Below, one piece after another: positions 44,827 to 52,739 of a stretch of DNA of 64,000 nucleotides (positions are counted from its first letter, which is position 1; each line of letters begins with the position of its first letter). Source of the stretch: Acidimicrobiales bacterium mtb01 (GTDB taxonomy: Bacteria; Actinomycetota; Acidimicrobiia; Acidimicrobiales; Ilumatobacteraceae); the NCBI GenBank assembly GCA_004379135.1, contig NBNI01000007.1, forward strand, positions 855,501-919,500, in the 5' to 3' direction. Below the pieces are notes generated by a model. It was given only the letters and a program-made list of their open reading frames with translations. It searched no databases and was not told the origin of the DNA. The translations under genes and the position numbers were made by a program.

Positions 44827-45366
44827 TCAGGCCGGGCGGTTGGGGCGGAGAAAGGTGACCCAGGCCCGGCCGTAGCGCTTCGAGCGGACGACTTCCCAGC
44901 CGTCGCGCTCGACCGGTTCGCGATCGCTCTCCACGACAACCACGGCGTCATCGACGACGACGGGTTCGATCGCGGTGAAGAAGCGATCCCAGTCGGAGAA
45001 ACCGTAGGGAGGATCGGCCAGAAGCAGGTCGATGTTGCGTTGACCGACGACCGAGGTGAGGGTGTCGCCCGCCACGACTCGCGTGCGATCGACCAGCCCC
45101 AACTTCGAAACGTTGGCGCGAATCGCTTCGAGGGCCCGCTTGTCGCGCTCGATGAAGGTGCAGTGTCGGGCCCCACGAGAGAGCGCCTCGATTCCGAGCG
45201 CACCACTTCCGGCGTACACATCGAGCACCGCCGCGTCGTCGAGAACACCGAGACTGTCGAGGGCGTTGAACATGGCCTCGCGGGCCCGATCGGTGGTGGG
45301 CCGAGTGGCGTCGCCTTCGGGGGCGATGATGGCCCGACCGCGCAACGAACCGGCCACGACGCGCAT
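44827..45366 (-). CDS. rsmD: 16S rRNA (guanine(966)-N2)-methyltransferase
   Basis: 179 residues from ATG 45366, which lies 7 bases after TAGAGT. Start MRVVAGSLRGR; RPTTDRAREAMFNAL; SAM site VLDVYAGSGALGIEALSRGA; catalytic LLLADPPYGF. Modifies G966 in the small subunit. It diverges from a small plus-strand gene across 32 bases. Confidence 0.95.
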   Translation of the reverse strand: MRVVAGSLRGRAIIAPEGDATRPTTDRAREAMFNALDSLGVLDDAAVLDVYAGSGALGIEALSRGARHCTFIERDKRALEAIRANVSKLGLVDRTRVVAGDTLTSVVGQRNIDLLLADPPYGFSDWDRFFTAIEPVVVDDAVVVVESDREPVERDGWEVVRSKRYGRAWVTFLRPNRPA

Positions 45367-45373
45367 GAACGAC

Positions 45374-45379
45374 ACTCTA
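45374..45379 (-). promoter_or_regulatory. -10 hexamer TAGAGT for rsmD
   Basis: TAGAGT on the minus strand ends 7 bases before the ATG. On the plus strand CAGACT (45387-45392) lies 6 bases before GTG 45399, so the 32-base gap may hold two promoters. Confidence 0.55.
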
Positions 45380-45398
45380 GGGAGGCCAGACTTGGACC

Positions 45399-45587
45399 GT
45401 GCCGCGTTCACCCGAGAAGGAAATCGTGTGCGTCGACTGCGGTGGACGTTGCTTCCTCATTTCCTACGCGCGAGAAGACGGCACCTGGCTGCCGGGTGAC
45501 GTCGTCGCCTACCGATGCCAGGACTGCCTCGATCGCTGGGATCTCGTCCTGCCGGACGACTGGAGCGAGACGGACGACGAATCGTGA
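45399..45587 (+). CDS. zinc-ribbon mini-protein, 62 residues
   Basis: From GTG 45399. Cys pairs at 11/14 (CVDC) and 40/43 (CQDC) make a zinc ribbon; C18 is extra. The C-terminus is acidic with Trp (DRWDLVLPDDWSETDDES). No signal or membrane segment. Its stop overlaps the start of the large membrane protein as GTGA, suggesting a functional link or at least co-translation. Function unknown. Confidence 0.72.
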   Translation: MPRSPEKEIVCVDCGGRCFLISYAREDGTWLPGDVVAYRCQDCLDRWDLVLPDDWSETDDES

Positions 45588-48500
45588 CGGACGTCCGAAC
45601 GCCGCGGCGCGACCTGTCACGTGCGGTGTTCGCCGTCTTCGTGGCGGCGTTCTTGTTGCGCACACTCGGCCCGGTGTGGCGCTCGGGCCTTCGGCCGGAG
45701 TACCCCGATTCGTTCTCGTTCCTCGATCACGCTGGAATCGGACCGTGGTGGCCTTCGTTCTGGTTCGGTGAACGGCCGGTCGGAACACCGCTGGTCGCCT
45801 GGTTCCTCGGCCGGAACACCGGTGCGATCGTGCTCGTACAGTCGGCGGCCTACGCGCTCGCTGTCGCGGTGCTCGGAGCGACCCTCTTGCGCATCGTCGC
45901 CAATCGCGTGATCGCCTGGATGGCGGTCGTGGGTGTCGCCTTGCTGGCGGTGCAGCCGCGCTTCGCGCTGTGGTCGCTCGAAGTGCTGAGCGAGTCGCTC
46001 GGGCTCACGCTGTCACTCCTCGCGTTGGCCGCCTGGCTCGTGCAGGCCCACTCCCCTTCGCGCCGCCGTCTGGTGCTCGCGTTCGCCGTCACGCTGGCCT
46101 GGCTCATGGTGCGCGACGCCCACGCGGTGACGGTCGGCGTCGTCGCCCTGGCCTGCCTGGTCGCCAGTCGATCGACGAGCGATTCGGCGCGACGACGCCT
46201 GCTTCGCGTCGGAGCCGTCGTTCTGGTGCTCGGAGTCGCCTACGTCGCCATCGCGCAGAACGTGAGCGAGCGCAATCGCTATCCGCTCATCAACACCGTC
46301 GGACTGCGAGTCCTCCCCGACGAGGACCTCGCGAACGATTGGGTCGAGCGGGGCATGCCCATGAGCGATGCCCTCCGCGAGCGCGCCGGTTCGGATTCGT
46401 GGTCGGATGGAGACGCTTTTCTGCGCGATCCGCGTCTGGCCGACTTCCGCCACTGGGCCGACGGCGAGGGCCAGCGCGATCAGGTGATGTCGCTCGTGCT
46501 CGACGCCCCGCACTGGCTCGGCGAAATGCGCCGCGACCTTCCCGCTCTGCTCACGTATCGATTCGGCGATTACGACCGCTACGACGCGGGTGACCGGCTC
46601 CCCGAGGGTTCGTCGTGGTTCGATCTTCCACGCACCAACGCTTCGCTCGCTCTCTGGCTGGCCGTCGGCTTCCTGGCGGCCGTCGTCGTCGCACGCAAAC
46701 GGCGAGCTCTCGGAGCGGTGCTCGGAGTCGCGCTGACCGCGACGATCGTCGAGGCGTACACCTCGTACGCGCTCGACGCCGTGGAGGTCCAGCGACACAT
46801 GGTCGGCGTGCTGCTGCGCGTCGGAGTGATCGTCGTGATCGCAGTGGCGTTGGCGCTCGGCGACGCATTCCCGAGAGCGGCGTCGAGAGCGGCGCCGATC
46901 ACGAGGACCACGGCGGCGCTCGTGGGCGCGGGAACGACGCTCGTGTTCATGGCGTGGACGGCCATCGAGTTCCGCTCACAGGATTACGACCCGCAGTTCG
47001 CGCGCACGGTCGTCGAGCGAGCGGCCAGATTCGGCGGCTCGTACTACGAGAACGGCATCCACAACAAGGGACCGTTCGAGATGGTCGTGTACGACGCCGC
47101 GCACCGGGTCGCGTCGTACGACTCGTATTGGTTCGCGATCGCGGCCTTCGTGATCGCCATCGCACTGGTCGTGGCCGCCGCGAGCGCGACGGTTTCGCGG
47201 ACGCTCGGAGCGGGTCGGGCCGCCGCCGTCTCGGCGGGTGTCATCGCGTTCATCCACCTCACGTTCTCGTCGAGCGACTACGCGGGAGTTCTCTACAGCC
47301 GCAACATCACGACCGGACTCCTCGCGTCGGCGGTCGTCGTCGTCCTCACCGAATGGTTCTGGACGTCGGTTCGCCGCGCGCGCCTCTCGTGGGTCGCCCT
47401 GGCCTTACTCGTCGGACTGGCCGTACAGACGCTCCTCACGAGCGCCTTCGCGGCGGTCGCGGTCGTGTCGCTCGCACTCGTCGTTCGCCGACACGACACG
47501 CCGTTCGCTCGTCCGGGTGTCGTCTTCGCTTCGACGGGCATCGCCACCGTGGCGAGCGCACCCGTGTGGTACGCGCTGCGCGGTACTTTCGATGAATTCT
47601 GGTCGGGCTGGTGGACCTACGCGAGTTACATGAATTCGGGTCTGGGTCGCGCGCTGCGCGATCAATTCGGACTCGGCTGGCAGACGTTCCTCGGGTACCA
47701 CCAGGACCGGCCGATGCTCGTCGTTCTCTACGCCGTGTTCGCGGTGATCGTTCGCCGACGCTGGCACTCGCTCACGAGCACGCAGCGAGCCCTCGGCGCG
47801 ACCATCGCCGTGTGGTGGTTCGCCGCCTGGATCGAACTGATACTGAGCCAGCGCTATTCGAGCCACTACTTCTCGGTGCTCGCGGTGCCCACTCTCCTCG
47901 CCATCGCCTTCGTCATCGGAGCGATCGCTCCGCTCCTCCCGCTCCGACGTGCGCTTCCCCTTTTCGTCCTCGTCGGATCGCTGGCCGCCCAGGGCACCGA
48001 CATGTTCTGGGCTGGCGCCGAATCGGCCGGGCGATTCACCGGCTTCGCCGATCACACCGTCGAACGCGCTCGAAATCGCAGTGGCGAATCGCGAACGGTC
48101 CATGCGGTGCTCGACCTGGTGGGACGGGACGGCGACCCCCTCCTGTCGTGGACGATGTATCCCTGGACGTACCTCGAAAACCATCGCGTGCCGGCCACCC
48201 GCTTCGCCTGGAAATCGTTCCTGATCGGCGAGATCTACCTCGGCCGAACCTCATCCGACTACGTACTGCCCGAGACCCGAACCTGGTTCGCCGAGGACCT
48301 CGCGGAATCACGACCGCGCGCGTACGTGCACCCGGTCAGCGTGTCGCTCGGCGGGAGCGACTGGTTCCAGCGGATCGTCGATCGCGACTTCCAGCCGGTG
48401 CTGACCACCGAGCAGAACGAATTGAGCATCGAACGAGGCGCCTGGTCGGAGTTGACCCGGAATCCGACCGGAGCGGCGCGTGATGTCGTCGTCGCGGCGG

Positions 48501-48874
48501 ATCCGGTCGTCATCGCCGACGACGACTGCCGATCCACGGGTGGACGACTCCCCTCGCTCGGTGCCGACACGAGCGTGACGTTCTGGTTCCGCGATGCCGA
48601 CGGATCGAACGAGACGGTCGCGCTGTCGCTGTCGTCCACTCGCGCATGGTCGAGCAGCGAATCGGTCGAATTCGCCTCGATTCCGGTGGCTCTCGAGGAG
48701 CCGGAACCGTTCCGCCTCCTGATCGGGGCGCGAGCCGCGGTGCTCGTGATCGGAGATCGGATCGTCGGAGCGGTCGAGATCGACGGCGACACGACGGTGA
48801 GCGCGACCGCGACCGGCGACGTTCGGTTGAGCGAGGTCCGTTCGGGCGGGATGCCGGCTTTCGCCGGCTGCTGA
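45584..48874 (+). CDS. 1096-residue membrane protein resembling two fused GT-C glycosyltransferases
   Basis: From GTG 45584. Two hydrophobic blocks each begin with a GT-C-like first loop. The first (RPEYPDSFSFLD, FGERPVGTPLVAWFLGRN, LVQSAAYALA) follows helix 1. The second (DYDPQFARTVVE, YYENGIHNKGPFEMVVYD) follows a helix at about residue 445-465. Roughly nineteen to twenty membrane helices reach residue about 810. The last about 280 residues are extracytoplasmic, with two strand-rich segments (VVIADDDCRSTGGRLPS..., beta-sandwich-like). GT-C enzymes use lipid-linked sugars outside the membrane. The family call rests on loop patterns, so it is moderate. Confidence 0.62.
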   Translation: MTDVRTPRRDLSRAVFAVFVAAFLLRTLGPVWRSGLRPEYPDSFSFLDHAGIGPWWPSFWFGERPVGTPLVAWFLGRNTGAIVLVQSAAYALAVAVLGATLLRIVANRVIAWMAVVGVALLAVQPRFALWSLEVLSESLGLTLSLLALAAWLVQAHSPSRRRLVLAFAVTLAWLMVRDAHAVTVGVVALACLVASRSTSDSARRRLLRVGAVVLVLGVAYVAIAQNVSERNRYPLINTVGLRVLPDEDLANDWVERGMPMSDALRERAGSDSWSDGDAFLRDPRLADFRHWADGEGQRDQVMSLVLDAPHWLGEMRRDLPALLTYRFGDYDRYDAGDRLPEGSSWFDLPRTNASLALWLAVGFLAAVVVARKRRALGAVLGVALTATIVEAYTSYALDAVEVQRHMVGVLLRVGVIVVIAVALALGDAFPRAASRAAPITRTTAALVGAGTTLVFMAWTAIEFRSQDYDPQFARTVVERAARFGGSYYENGIHNKGPFEMVVYDAAHRVASYDSYWFAIAAFVIAIALVVAAASATVSRTLGAGRAAAVSAGVIAFIHLTFSSSDYAGVLYSRNITTGLLASAVVVVLTEWFWTSVRRARLSWVALALLVGLAVQTLLTSAFAAVAVVSLALVVRRHDTPFARPGVVFASTGIATVASAPVWYALRGTFDEFWSGWWTYASYMNSGLGRALRDQFGLGWQTFLGYHQDRPMLVVLYAVFAVIVRRRWHSLTSTQRALGATIAVWWFAAWIELILSQRYSSHYFSVLAVPTLLAIAFVIGAIAPLLPLRRALPLFVLVGSLAAQGTDMFWAGAESAGRFTGFADHTVERARNRSGESRTVHAVLDLVGRDGDPLLSWTMYPWTYLENHRVPATRFAWKSFLIGEIYLGRTSSDYVLPETRTWFAEDLAESRPRAYVHPVSVSLGGSDWFQRIVDRDFQPVLTTEQNELSIERGAWSELTRNPTGAARDVVVAADPVVIADDDCRSTGGRLPSLGADTSVTFWFRDADGSNETVALSLSSTRAWSSSESVEFASIPVALEEPEPFRLLIGARAAVLVIGDRIVGAVEIDGDTTVSATATGDVRLSEVRSGGMPAFAGC

Positions 48875-48903: not shown

Positions 48904-51072
48904 TCAACTCTTGAAGAGGAACTCCTCGTCTTCGGGACGCAGGAAGAGTTCGAGCTCGTCCCGGAGCGCGGCATGCGACGCGAGCGTTGGGTCGTCGTCG
49001 ACCACCGCGAACGCCGCCTCGCGCGCCATCGCCACCAGCTCCCGATCGCGTCGTAGCGAGGCGAGCTTCAGATCGCTGCGACCCTTCTGCTCCTTGTTCA
49101 TGAGGGTTCCCTCGCCACGCAACTCGAGGTCGACCTCGGCGAGGTGGAAGCCGTCGTCGGATTCGACGAGGGCCTCGACCCGCGGCGAGACCTCGGCGAC
49201 CAGAGTCGACTCGTCGCCGGCCGCGCTCGTGACGAGCCAACAGGTGGACTCGTGCGATCCGCGACCGACTCGCCCGCGCAACTGGTGGAGCTGGGCGATG
49301 CCGAAACGATCGGCATCGAGGATCACCATCGCCGTCGCGTTCGGAACGTCGACGCCGACTTCGATCACGGTGGTGGCCACCAGCACGTCGAGCCGACCCG
49401 TTCGGAACGAATCCATGACGGCTTCCTTCTCGGCCGACGACATCCGGCCGTGCAGCAATCCGACGCGCAACCCTGCGAGTTCGCCGGTCTCGAGGCGAAT
49501 TCGGGTCTCCTCGGCCGAGGCCACCTCGAGCTTCTCGCTCTCCTCGATGAGGGGGCAGACCACGTAGGCCTGTCGGCCCCGACTCACTTGATCGCGAACA
49601 TCGGCCCACACGTCGTTCGCCTCCACCCCACGCGCGTGACGCGTGACGATCGGAGTCCGCCCCGGCGGCTTCTCGTCGAGGATGCTGACGTCGAGATCGC
49701 CGTAGACCGTCATGGCCGCCGTGCGCGGAATCGGGGTGGCCGTCATGACCAGCACATCGGGCGACCGTCCGTCGGCTTGGCCCTTGTCGCGCAGAGCCGC
49801 TCGCTGCTCGACGCCGAATCGATGCTGTTCGTCGACGACGACCACACCGAGACTGGCGAATTCGACCCCCTCCTGGATGAGCGCGTGGGTACCGATGACG
49901 ATGTCGACCGAACCATCGGCCAGACCGGCCAGGACGTCCCGCCGCTTCTCGCCGGTGACGCTGTTGGTGAGGAGTTCGACCCGAACTTCGCGTTCACCGA
50001 ACAAGTTCTCGTCGGACGGAATGCGCAGACCGTCGAGAAGTCGACGAATACCCGACGCGTGCTGTTCGGCCAGCACTTCGGTGGGTGCCATGAGTGCCGA
50101 CTGATGACCGCCGTCGACGCCCACGAGCATGGCCACGACCGCGACGAGCGTCTTGCCCGCACCCACGTCGCCTTGGAGCAGTCGATGCATCGGTCGCGGA
50201 TCGGCCAGATCGCGTTCGATCTCGCGGATCACTCGTTCCTGCGCCCCGGTGAGTCGATAGGGCAGATCGGCGAGGAAGCGTCGCACGAGCGGACCGTCCA
50301 CACGATGGACGATGCCGACCGAGTCGCGCTCCATGGCTCGCTTGCGCATGACGAGGACCAGCTGCACGCGGAGCAACTCGTCGAACGCGAGTCGACGGCG
50401 AGCTGCTTCCTTGACGGCGAAGGTGTCGGGCAGGTGGATGCCGAAGAGCGCATCCTGTCGGCTCGCGAGCGTGAAGCGTTCGAGGATCGACGCGGGCACC
50501 GGGTCGTCGAGTCCGCGGGCGCGGCATCGCGACAGTGCCTCGTCGACGGCGCGACGAACGACCCACGACGGCAGATCAACCTTCTCGCTCTGCGGATACA
50601 CCGACACGATCGGTCGCGGGCGCTCACCCGGATCGCCGAGCACGTCGACGGTCGGATTGGCCATCTGTCGCTGGCCGCGGAAAGCAGTCACCTTGCCGTG
50701 CACGGCGACGAGCGAACCCGGAGCGAGTTGCCGCTCGCGCCATGGCTGGTTGAAGAACACCACGGTGAGTCGGCCGGTGTCGTCTCCGATCGTCGCGGTG
50801 ACGCGCGACGGACCACGGCCCCGCGGCGGCGACGACACCGCGCGAACCTCGGCCACGACCAGTGCGTCGAGACCTTCGACCAGATCCTCGATTCGCGCCT
50901 CACGAGTCCGGTCGATCCACCGTCTCGGATAATGAGTGAGCAGATCGGCCAGGTTCTCGATGCCGAATTTGCCGAAGTTCTCGCGCCGCTTTCCGGCCCC
51001 CACCGCCTTCAGTCGAGCCAGATCGATGTCGGCGAGATCACGAAACGTGATCGGAGCGGACTGTTCGCTCAC
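48904..51072 (-). CDS. recG: ATP-dependent DNA helicase RecG
   Basis: 722 residues from GTG 51072. The wedge/OB domain (about 60-150) is followed by helicase domain motifs: GDVGAGKT (301-308), a VVVDEQHRFG box, TATPIPRT, LHGRMSSAEKEAVM and QLHQLRGRVGRG. It remodels stalled replication forks and branched DNA. GTGA overlap with the upstream kinase-like gene, the usual DAK-recG order. Confidence 0.97.
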   Translation of the reverse strand: MSEQSAPITFRDLADIDLARLKAVGAGKRRENFGKFGIENLADLLTHYPRRWIDRTREARIEDLVEGLDALVVAEVRAVSSPPRGRGPSRVTATIGDDTGRLTVVFFNQPWRERQLAPGSLVAVHGKVTAFRGQRQMANPTVDVLGDPGERPRPIVSVYPQSEKVDLPSWVVRRAVDEALSRCRARGLDDPVPASILERFTLASRQDALFGIHLPDTFAVKEAARRRLAFDELLRVQLVLVMRKRAMERDSVGIVHRVDGPLVRRFLADLPYRLTGAQERVIREIERDLADPRPMHRLLQGDVGAGKTLVAVVAMLVGVDGGHQSALMAPTEVLAEQHASGIRRLLDGLRIPSDENLFGEREVRVELLTNSVTGEKRRDVLAGLADGSVDIVIGTHALIQEGVEFASLGVVVVDEQHRFGVEQRAALRDKGQADGRSPDVLVMTATPIPRTAAMTVYGDLDVSILDEKPPGRTPIVTRHARGVEANDVWADVRDQVSRGRQAYVVCPLIEESEKLEVASAEETRIRLETGELAGLRVGLLHGRMSSAEKEAVMDSFRTGRLDVLVATTVIEVGVDVPNATAMVILDADRFGIAQLHQLRGRVGRGSHESTCWLVTSAAGDESTLVAEVSPRVEALVESDDGFHLAEVDLELRGEGTLMNKEQKGRSDLKLASLRRDRELVAMAREAAFAVVDDDPTLASHAALRDELELFLRPEDEEFLFKS

Positions 51073-52739
51073 TCGACGCCGAAGAGATACGGATACAGAG
51101 GCTGGCCGCCGCGATGGCATTCGACCTGAACGCCCGGTCGTTCGGATGCGACCCAGGTTCGCAACGCGTCGGTGACGGCAGCGACCGCCTCGGAGCCCTC
51201 GATGATCGTCACGATCTCGCGCTCTTCGGTGACGAGGTGTTCGAGCAGCGCGACCGCCGCACCGTCGAGCGAGCCGGCCACCGCGACGATGCCGTCGCCG
51301 CGCACGAGTCCGATCCAGTCGCCCGCGGTCACGGGCCCGCTGTCGCTGTGCGAGTCGCGCACGGCCTGAGTCACCTCGCCAGTCACCATCGCATCGATGG
51401 CCGAGGACATCGACGACGAGTTGTCGTCGACACCGGCTTCGGGGTCGTAGACCACGAGAGCGGCCAGTGCTTCGGGCATCGAGCGGGTCGGTACGACCCT
51501 GACCGACTTGGAGGTGAGCGCATCGAGCTGTTCGGCGACCGGGATGATGTTCTTGTTGTTCGGCAGCACGATCACCTCGCGCGCATTCACGTGCTCGACC
51601 GCCTCGAGGAGCTCGGCCGTGGACGGGTTGAGCGTCTGTCCGCCGGTGACGATTCCTTGCACGCCGAGTTGCGCGAACAACTCCTCGAGTCCGCTTCCGC
51701 TGCACACGGCCACCACCGCGGTCGTGACCGCGGGAAGTCCCGAGACGCCGAGGCGCCGTTCGTGCTCGGCGTGCCGCTCGGCGACTTCCTCGAACAAGTC
51801 GGTCACCCGGATCTGCTTGGGTCGACCACCCAGATCGATCGCCACTTCGATGGCGGCGCCGATGTCGTTGGTGTGCACATGGCAGTTCCAGAGGCCGTCG
51901 CCGCCCACCACCACGATCGAATCGCCGATCTCGGCCCAGTCGGACTTGAACGATTCGATCTTGTCGTCGTCGAGATGCAGGAAGTACATGACCTCGTAGC
52001 GCAGATCGGCCACCGTGAGGTCGCCGTGCTCGTCGGGGGCGGCCACGAGCGACGGAAGATCGTCGGCGTCACCGCCGATCGAGTCGGCCGGCGTCGGGAT
52101 CGGCTCACCGTCGACGACGTTCAAGGCCGCGTCGAGCAACAACAAGAACCCGGCACCGCCGGCGTCGACGACACCGGCGTCCTTCAGGACGGGCAGCATG
52201 TCGGGCGTGCGGTCGAGCGCCGAGCGACCGGCGTCGCGCGCGGCCCGCAGCACCACCGCGAGTCCGGCCCCGCTCGCCGCGGTCGACTTGGCCGCCTCGC
52301 TCGCTTCGCGAACGACCGTGAGGATGGTCCCCTCGATCGGCTTCACCACGGCCTTGTACGCGGCCGACGACGCCTCCGACAGGGCTTCGGCCAGACCCGA
52401 GGCGGTGTGCGACGCGGCCGACGACAATCGACCGGCCAACCCGCGCAGGATCTGCGACAGGATCACACCCGAATTGCCGCGCGCCCCCATGAGCGACCCG
52501 TGGGAAATGGCCTGGCAGGTGGTCTCGATGGCCGGGTCGGCCCGGTCGAGTTCGGCCACCACCGCGTCGAGAGTCCGGGCCATGTTGGTTCCGGTGTCGC
52601 CGTCGGGGACCGGATAGACGTTCAGCCGGTTGATGCGCGGAGCGTGCTCGCGCACCGCGTCGCGGAAGGTCACCACGGTGCGCCGCAGGCGCTCGGCGTC
52701 GAAACGCTCCCCCTCGGGCGACATCACGGGCGCAGCCAC
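51069..52739 (-). CDS. DAK2-domain protein, fatty acid kinase FakA-like
   Basis: 556 residues. The N-terminal DhaL/DAK2 domain has the ATP/Mg motif PVPDGDTGTNM (near residues 43-53) and SLMGARGNSGVILSQILRG. A DegV-like C-terminal fold follows (VIVLPNNKNIIPVAEQ, RSMPEALAALVVYDPEAG). FakA phosphorylates fatty acids bound by FakB; no FakB is nearby. GTG 52739 lies 6 bases after TACCAT (52746-52751), so it is probably leaderless. It diverges from rpmB. Confidence 0.88.
   Translation of the reverse strand: MAAPVMSPEGERFDAERLRRTVVTFRDAVREHAPRINRLNVYPVPDGDTGTNMARTLDAVVAELDRADPAIETTCQAISHGSLMGARGNSGVILSQILRGLAGRLSSAASHTASGLAEALSEASSAAYKAVVKPIEGTILTVVREASEAAKSTAASGAGLAVVLRAARDAGRSALDRTPDMLPVLKDAGVVDAGGAGFLLLLDAALNVVDGEPIPTPADSIGGDADDLPSLVAAPDEHGDLTVADLRYEVMYFLHLDDDKIESFKSDWAEIGDSIVVVGGDGLWNCHVHTNDIGAAIEVAIDLGGRPKQIRVTDLFEEVAERHAEHERRLGVSGLPAVTTAVVAVCSGSGLEELFAQLGVQGIVTGGQTLNPSTAELLEAVEHVNAREVIVLPNNKNIIPVAEQLDALTSKSVRVVPTRSMPEALAALVVYDPEAGVDDNSSSMSSAIDAMVTGEVTQAVRDSHSDSGPVTAGDWIGLVRGDGIVAVAGSLDGAAVALLEHLVTEEREIVTIIEGSEAVAAVTDALRTWVASERPGVQVECHRGGQPLYPYLFGVE

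Follow-up and report, generated by a model that had tools for sequence, protein, structure and literature searches.

The window, a 64,000-nucleotide stretch of the genome of the freshwater actinobacterium Acidimicrobiales bacterium mtb01, contains a long plus-strand gene for a protein of 1096 amino acids with two predicted membrane modules, here called A and B, each resembling glycosyltransferases of the GT-C type. The open reading frame begins with a GTG start codon at 45584, ends with a stop codon at 48872-48874, and is present in a single copy in the 2.56-Mb genome; an alternative in-frame ATG upstream at 45515 would extend the product to 1119 amino acids. Neighboring genes on the minus strand include rsmD, coaD, recG, and a DAK/FakA-like gene, with rsmD and recG flanking the glycosyltransferase gene. 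The neighborhood of the 1096-amino-acid gene in the window gave no pointer in the form of glycan-pathway genes. The features of the locus are as follows.

44827..45411, minus strand: rsmD (PF03602), neighbor; the true start is probably near residue 16
45399..45587, plus strand: zinc-ribbon mini-protein of 62 amino acids with two CxxC motifs, a neighbor only
45584..48874, plus strand: fused protein of 1096 amino acids with two predicted GT-C modules; full-length homologs at loci L002 to L007
45584..46888, plus strand: module A, residues 1 to 435, predicted WsfD-like GT-C with about 10 membrane helices, from the structural model and stand-alone homologs
45704..45712, plus strand: PDS motif in the first extracytoplasmic loop of module A, with D42 nearly invariant
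46775..46798, plus strand: DAVEVQRH, residues 398 to 405, in the loop before the last helix of module A, from the module A alignment
46889..46939, plus strand: linker between the modules, basic and of varying length among fused relatives
46904..48034, plus strand: membrane part of module B, residues ~441 to 817, predicted GT-C outside any Pfam family with about 11 helices
46982..47077, plus strand: first extracytoplasmic loop of module B, DYDPQ...ENGIHNKGPF
47852..47890, plus strand: RYSSHYFSVLAVP (R757...P769) in a late loop of module B, fitting the GT-C pattern R-x(4-14)-P
48122..48478, plus strand: predicted extracytoplasmic alpha/beta subdomain of module B, residues ~847 to 965, with the conserved WTMYPWTYLENHRVPATRF
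48479..48850, plus strand: C-terminal beta-sandwich of module B, residues ~966 to 1089, a galectin-like jelly roll in the model
48904..51129, minus strand: recG, neighbor

Two different membrane modules with predicted GT-C folds

A preliminary description of this DNA had noted two blocks of membrane helices followed by a long C-terminal tail, with characteristic first-loop motifs in each block. These features are all present in the 1096-amino-acid protein: PDS occupies residues 41 to 43, DYDPQ begins at residue 467, and HNKGPF begins at residue 493. Pfam searches with the whole protein and with each half returned no significant family, and sequence-profile searches against PDB chains returned chance matches alone. 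Helix counts were taken from AlphaFold models, as a Kyte-Doolittle scan resolved too few helices for a reliable span count. A profile comparison of module A with module B detected no homology, which argues for the fusion of two different GT-C proteins and not for a recent or internal duplication. A general signature of GT-C enzymes comprises one or more acidic residues in the first extracytoplasmic loop and a late-loop R-x(4-14)-P motif (PMC6801728); module B carries both the acidic residue and the R-x(4-14)-P motif, and module A carries the acidic residue.

The AlphaFold model of module A had a pLDDT of 89.8 and a pTM of 0.90, and the top 23 Foldseek matches in the PDB were all GT-C enzymes or complexes, including STT3/OST, AglB, PglB, DPY19, ArnT, and Pmt1-Pmt2, followed by AftB, AftA, ALG3, and EmbB. 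The E values were weak (2.1e-3 at best), with a probability of about 1 and a modest TM-score of about 0.5; membrane folds other than GT-C had probabilities below 0.2. Module A is predicted to have a GT-C fold, for which the scores are modest, yet the type of match agrees throughout. The candidate catalytic acid D42, which follows a helix at residues 12 to 34, is a single aspartate and not part of a DxD motif, and is conserved in at least 90% of the rows of the module A alignment. In the late loop, D398 is nearly invariant and E401, R404, and H405 are invariant. Most relatives of module A carry R404-x4-P, but in the window protein and in L002 and L003 valine replaces the proline; the late-loop proline is missing from the window's clade, whereas R404 itself is kept.

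By sequence, module A most resembles WsfD (NF051875), a hexose transferase for the S-layer glycan of Paenibacillus alvei. The proposed activity of WsfD lies outside the membrane, where it would draw on a lipid-linked hexose, passing glucose from the lipid carrier to the glycan (PMC2943079). The match covers residues 85 to 247, and 15 of 22 module A homologs match the NCBIfam WsfD model, with a best E value of 1.3e-13. WsfD differs in being a single enzyme, whereas module A is fused to a second GT-C module and scores 36.3 to 39.9 bits against NF051875, below the curated cutoff of 80 bits.

Module A probably has an even number of spans, with both termini in the cytoplasm, to judge from the model. 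The linker that follows is presumably also cytoplasmic because it is basic. An even span count and a cytoplasmic end would make the joining of A to B topologically simple, since A, if its span parity is as predicted, would end in the compartment where the first helix of B must begin.

The model of module B was less confident (pLDDT 75.4), and its first loop was poorly modeled, with pLDDT values below 50. For the membrane part of module B, the best structural matches in the PDB were yeast STT3 (E value, 5.9e-5), EmbC2 (1.1e-4), DPY19 (7.3e-4), and further STT3 entries. With a modest TM-score of 0.37 and a pLDDT of 75, the assignment of a GT-C fold to module B has moderate support. Seven residues of the first loop (D469, P470, G484, G485, N494, G496, and P497) are invariant, D469 being so across all 17 rows of the module B alignment, and R757-x11-P769 is nearly invariant among the homologs. 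By helix count, the C-terminal domain of module B probably lies outside the membrane, and its beta-sandwich matches galectins by fold in the PDB structure search.

The closest architectural counterparts of module B are the mycobacterial proteins EmbC and EmbB, whose layout the modeled module B appears to share: a GT-C membrane part and, outside the membrane, a C-terminal domain in two parts, the last of them a beta-sandwich of putatively lectin-like character in B. EmbC is the second-best structural match. In EmbC, the C-terminal domain has been proven to be a lectin-like module that binds the acceptor glycan (PMC3044687). Emb proteins have one GT-C core, however, and the similarity of their total length to 1096 amino acids is a coincidence. 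The fusion protein shows no sequence similarity to PDB chains, and no Emb Pfam domain was found in the window protein or among the module B rows. Likewise, PMT_2 (PF13231) matched 1 of 17 module B rows (E value, 0.009) and did not match the window protein, and the module B profile had no significant similarity to a small alignment of PMT_2-type proteins. Module B would extend Emb-like, lectin-tailed architecture to a GT-C family that Pfam does not cover, beyond the mycobacterial group in which such enzymes have been studied.

Fused and split forms in relatives

A direct homology search identified ten related loci (L002 to L011). Six of these (L002 to L007), from six independent metagenome-assembled genomes (MAGs), are full-length fusions with intact frames and 44 to 80% identity to the window protein, and L008 is a further fusion, truncated where its contig ends. 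Conservation at this level across independent assemblies indicates that the reading frame is neither a chance one nor an assembly error. The fused loci L002 to L008 come from actinobacterial MAGs, several of them from lakes, ponds, or reservoirs, judged by record titles. Two records, those of L006 and L009, are titled Bifidobacterium breve and Ferrithrix thermotolerans; the loci are near the window's lineage, and the titles look mislabeled.

Two adjacent genes occur in place of one in L009, L010, and L011, and adjacent A and B genes are also found in L034, L035, L060, L061, and L062; the counterpart of module A is a gene of its own in L009, L010, L034, L035, L061, and L062. The two genes of a split pair mostly overlap at the junction, with ATGA in L009 and L062, GTGA in L035 and L061, and TAATG in L010. 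With stop and start codons overlapping in most of these pairs, cotranslation of A and B is probable and joining them takes little; the simplest route would be loss of the stop codon that separates two overlapping genes of the same orientation.

When each half was searched separately against 298 genomes of the order, a split pair turned up in G172 and G006, and G169 had B but no A. A scan of the family detected module B in 9 of 61 genomes, namely, four of the window's genus, G006, G311, G327, G341, and G316 (a fragment). The gene is fused in all four genus members searched and lies between the mini-protein gene and recG, whereas in G006, G311, G327, and G341 A and B are split and the gene order, with names read from translations, is efp, nusB, A, B, and pyr/car genes; split pairs often occupy this nusB-pyrR interval. 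In a scan of the phylum, B was present in 3 of 396 genomes, all from the window's class. The A-B pair is not obligatory, since in G169 and G390 B is present but no A could be detected. A-like proteins also occur as single genes without B. In a tree of B, every fused form falls in one clade (support, 99/99). The fusion is carried by one genus-level clade, and its halves belong to independent gene families.

Two split or solitary loci have further neighbors. In G172, three consecutive GT-C-like genes encode a DUF2079 protein, A, and B (L034:1653-6620). In G169, where no A was detected in the genome, the lone B gene adjoins, and shares its strand with, a gene for a GH38 alpha-mannosidase (L036:5480-10406).

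The tandem GT-C fusion put forward in the preliminary description is borne out by these comparisons: modeled singly, both halves have GT-C enzymes as their transmembrane PDB matches, and searches with each half find separate genes in relatives. A protein forming one continuous transporter, or some other membrane protein that is not two enzymes, would fit the lack of a recognized Pfam domain, but the halves are encoded separately in many relatives, and A and B, which share no homology, each model as a GT-C fold, so that this explanation is barely credible. A single continuous transporter fold is excluded by the split homologs.

The neighboring zinc-ribbon gene

The preliminary description was also correct that the glycosyltransferase gene interrupts the rsmD-recG neighborhood, because in relatives lacking it, such as L045, L046, L049, and L056, the mini-protein gene directly precedes recG. 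It further treated the zinc-ribbon mini-protein as a coupled partner of the membrane protein. The end of the mini-protein gene does overlap the GTG start of the long reading frame in a GTGA sequence, as described, and the two genes are also adjacent in the fused loci L002 to L008. This overlap is not conserved even within the fused relatives, however, and the mini-protein is encoded in 59 of 61 genomes of the family, mostly without the glycosyltransferase gene, against 9 of 61 for module B. In the loci read, the mini-protein gene is nearly always divergent from rsmD, including where the glycosyltransferase gene is absent and recG is often next. Conversely, the split A-B pairs lie elsewhere in the genome with no mini-protein gene alongside; in G006, the distance exceeds 1 Mb. 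A functional partnership is therefore very improbable, and the mini-protein gene is an unrelated core gene beside which the fused gene landed. The mini-protein matches no Pfam family over cutoff, though it is near-universal in the family beside rsmD, and represents a conserved, unnamed core gene.

Possible roles of the two modules

Much of the outer glycan of bacteria is made by GT-C enzymes, and it is seldom clear which of them act successively on one chain. A natural fusion whose halves are still separate neighbors in relatives singles out two enzymes that are likely to share one glycan and offers a ready test system. A search of the open-access literature found no account of a protein chain containing two GT-C cores; the tandem of two sequence-unrelated GT-C modules in one chain would be new, and its second half represents a new, predicted GT-C family.

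The reading that we favor, and consider rather probable, is that the protein contains two different, probably active GT-C enzymes performing sequential transfers on one extracytoplasmic glycan. With the architecture established, we infer the donors, acceptor, order of transfer, linkage, and chemistry of both modules. Each module has a conserved acid in its first loop (D42 and D469), which suggests that both are probably active with polyprenyl-phosphate sugar donors, and the retention of A and B as overlapping neighbor genes in relatives suggests that the two probably cooperate on a single surface glycan. A and B would carry out successive polyprenyl-phosphate-sugar-dependent transfers onto a single envelope glycan, which the lectin-like domain of B may tether. 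Fusion would fix the two activities at a 1:1 ratio and could hold the acceptor between both active sites.

A less probable, though still appreciable, alternative is that just one module is catalytic, with the other serving as a GT-C partner in a structural or regulatory role and the fusion being a covalent heterodimer comparable to EmbA-EmbB and Pmt1-Pmt2. Those pairs likewise bring together two different GT-C subunits, but their subunits are homologous and on separate chains, whereas A and B show no sequence relationship and form one chain. The overlapping, adjacent A and B genes in six split loci suggest a 1:1 complex, and B is also found alone; both observations would suit a heterodimer. 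On the other hand, the candidate catalytic acids are kept in both modules across 34 to 80% identity, and A-like genes stand alone without B.

STT3, PglB, and AglB move whole oligosaccharides. They also rank among the closest folds, STT3 for each module and PglB and AglB for module A, so one module might instead be a polymerase, a ligase, or an oligosaccharyltransferase-like enzyme that transfers a glycan en bloc. We regard this as unlikely because the single-sugar enzymes EmbC, DPY19, ArnT, and Pmt also match, the STT3 matches span the generic GT-C core, and module A resembles the single-hexose transferase WsfD. STT3, PglB, and AglB further differ from the fusion protein in showing no sequence similarity to it, and the C-terminal domain of B is galectin-like while A has none.

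A second long chain and decaprenyl-phosphate sugar genes

A PMT_2 search of the genome revealed a second GT-C chain of 1322 amino acids outside the window (G000:C1:361053-365018, minus strand, equivalent to L077:3054-7019, minus strand). PMT_2 matches residues 346 to 504, and a further membrane module starts at about residue 740 and opens with EEGFMLVFPERVMKGDIANVDFLHLYGPGSLH, which looks like the first loop of a GT-C enzyme. The chain is conserved across the genus, and its parts are separate adjacent frames in G002 and lie apart in G013. The 1322-amino-acid gene adjoins two genes of decaprenyl-phosphate sugar metabolism, whose products both score over their NCBIfam cutoffs.

L077:2-952, plus strand: decaprenyl-phosphate phosphoribosyltransferase (DPPR synthase)
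L077:969-2345, plus strand: DprE1

These genes point to a probable decaprenyl-phospho-arabinose pathway in a nonmycobacterial lineage, and polyprenyl-phosphate pentose donors are therefore probably available. DprE1 was found over cutoff in 23 of 28 genomes checked, comprising all 9 carriers of both A and B, 14 of 17 noncarriers, and neither of the 2 genomes with B only. DprE1 was dropped as evidence for an arabinose donor of module B, given its presence in 14 of the 17 noncarriers and its absence over cutoff from the B-only genomes; the latter also implies that the donor of B need not be arabinose.

There is about an even chance that covalent GT-C tandems are recurrent in this genus and that B represents a new Emb-like, lectin-bearing GT-C family. 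If so, the genus would have built two or more covalent pairs of successive extracytoplasmic sugar transferases. Elsewhere on L077, a large open reading frame at L077:12106-14001 (minus strand) weakly resembles carbohydrate-binding modules of the F5/8 type C and AftD kinds.
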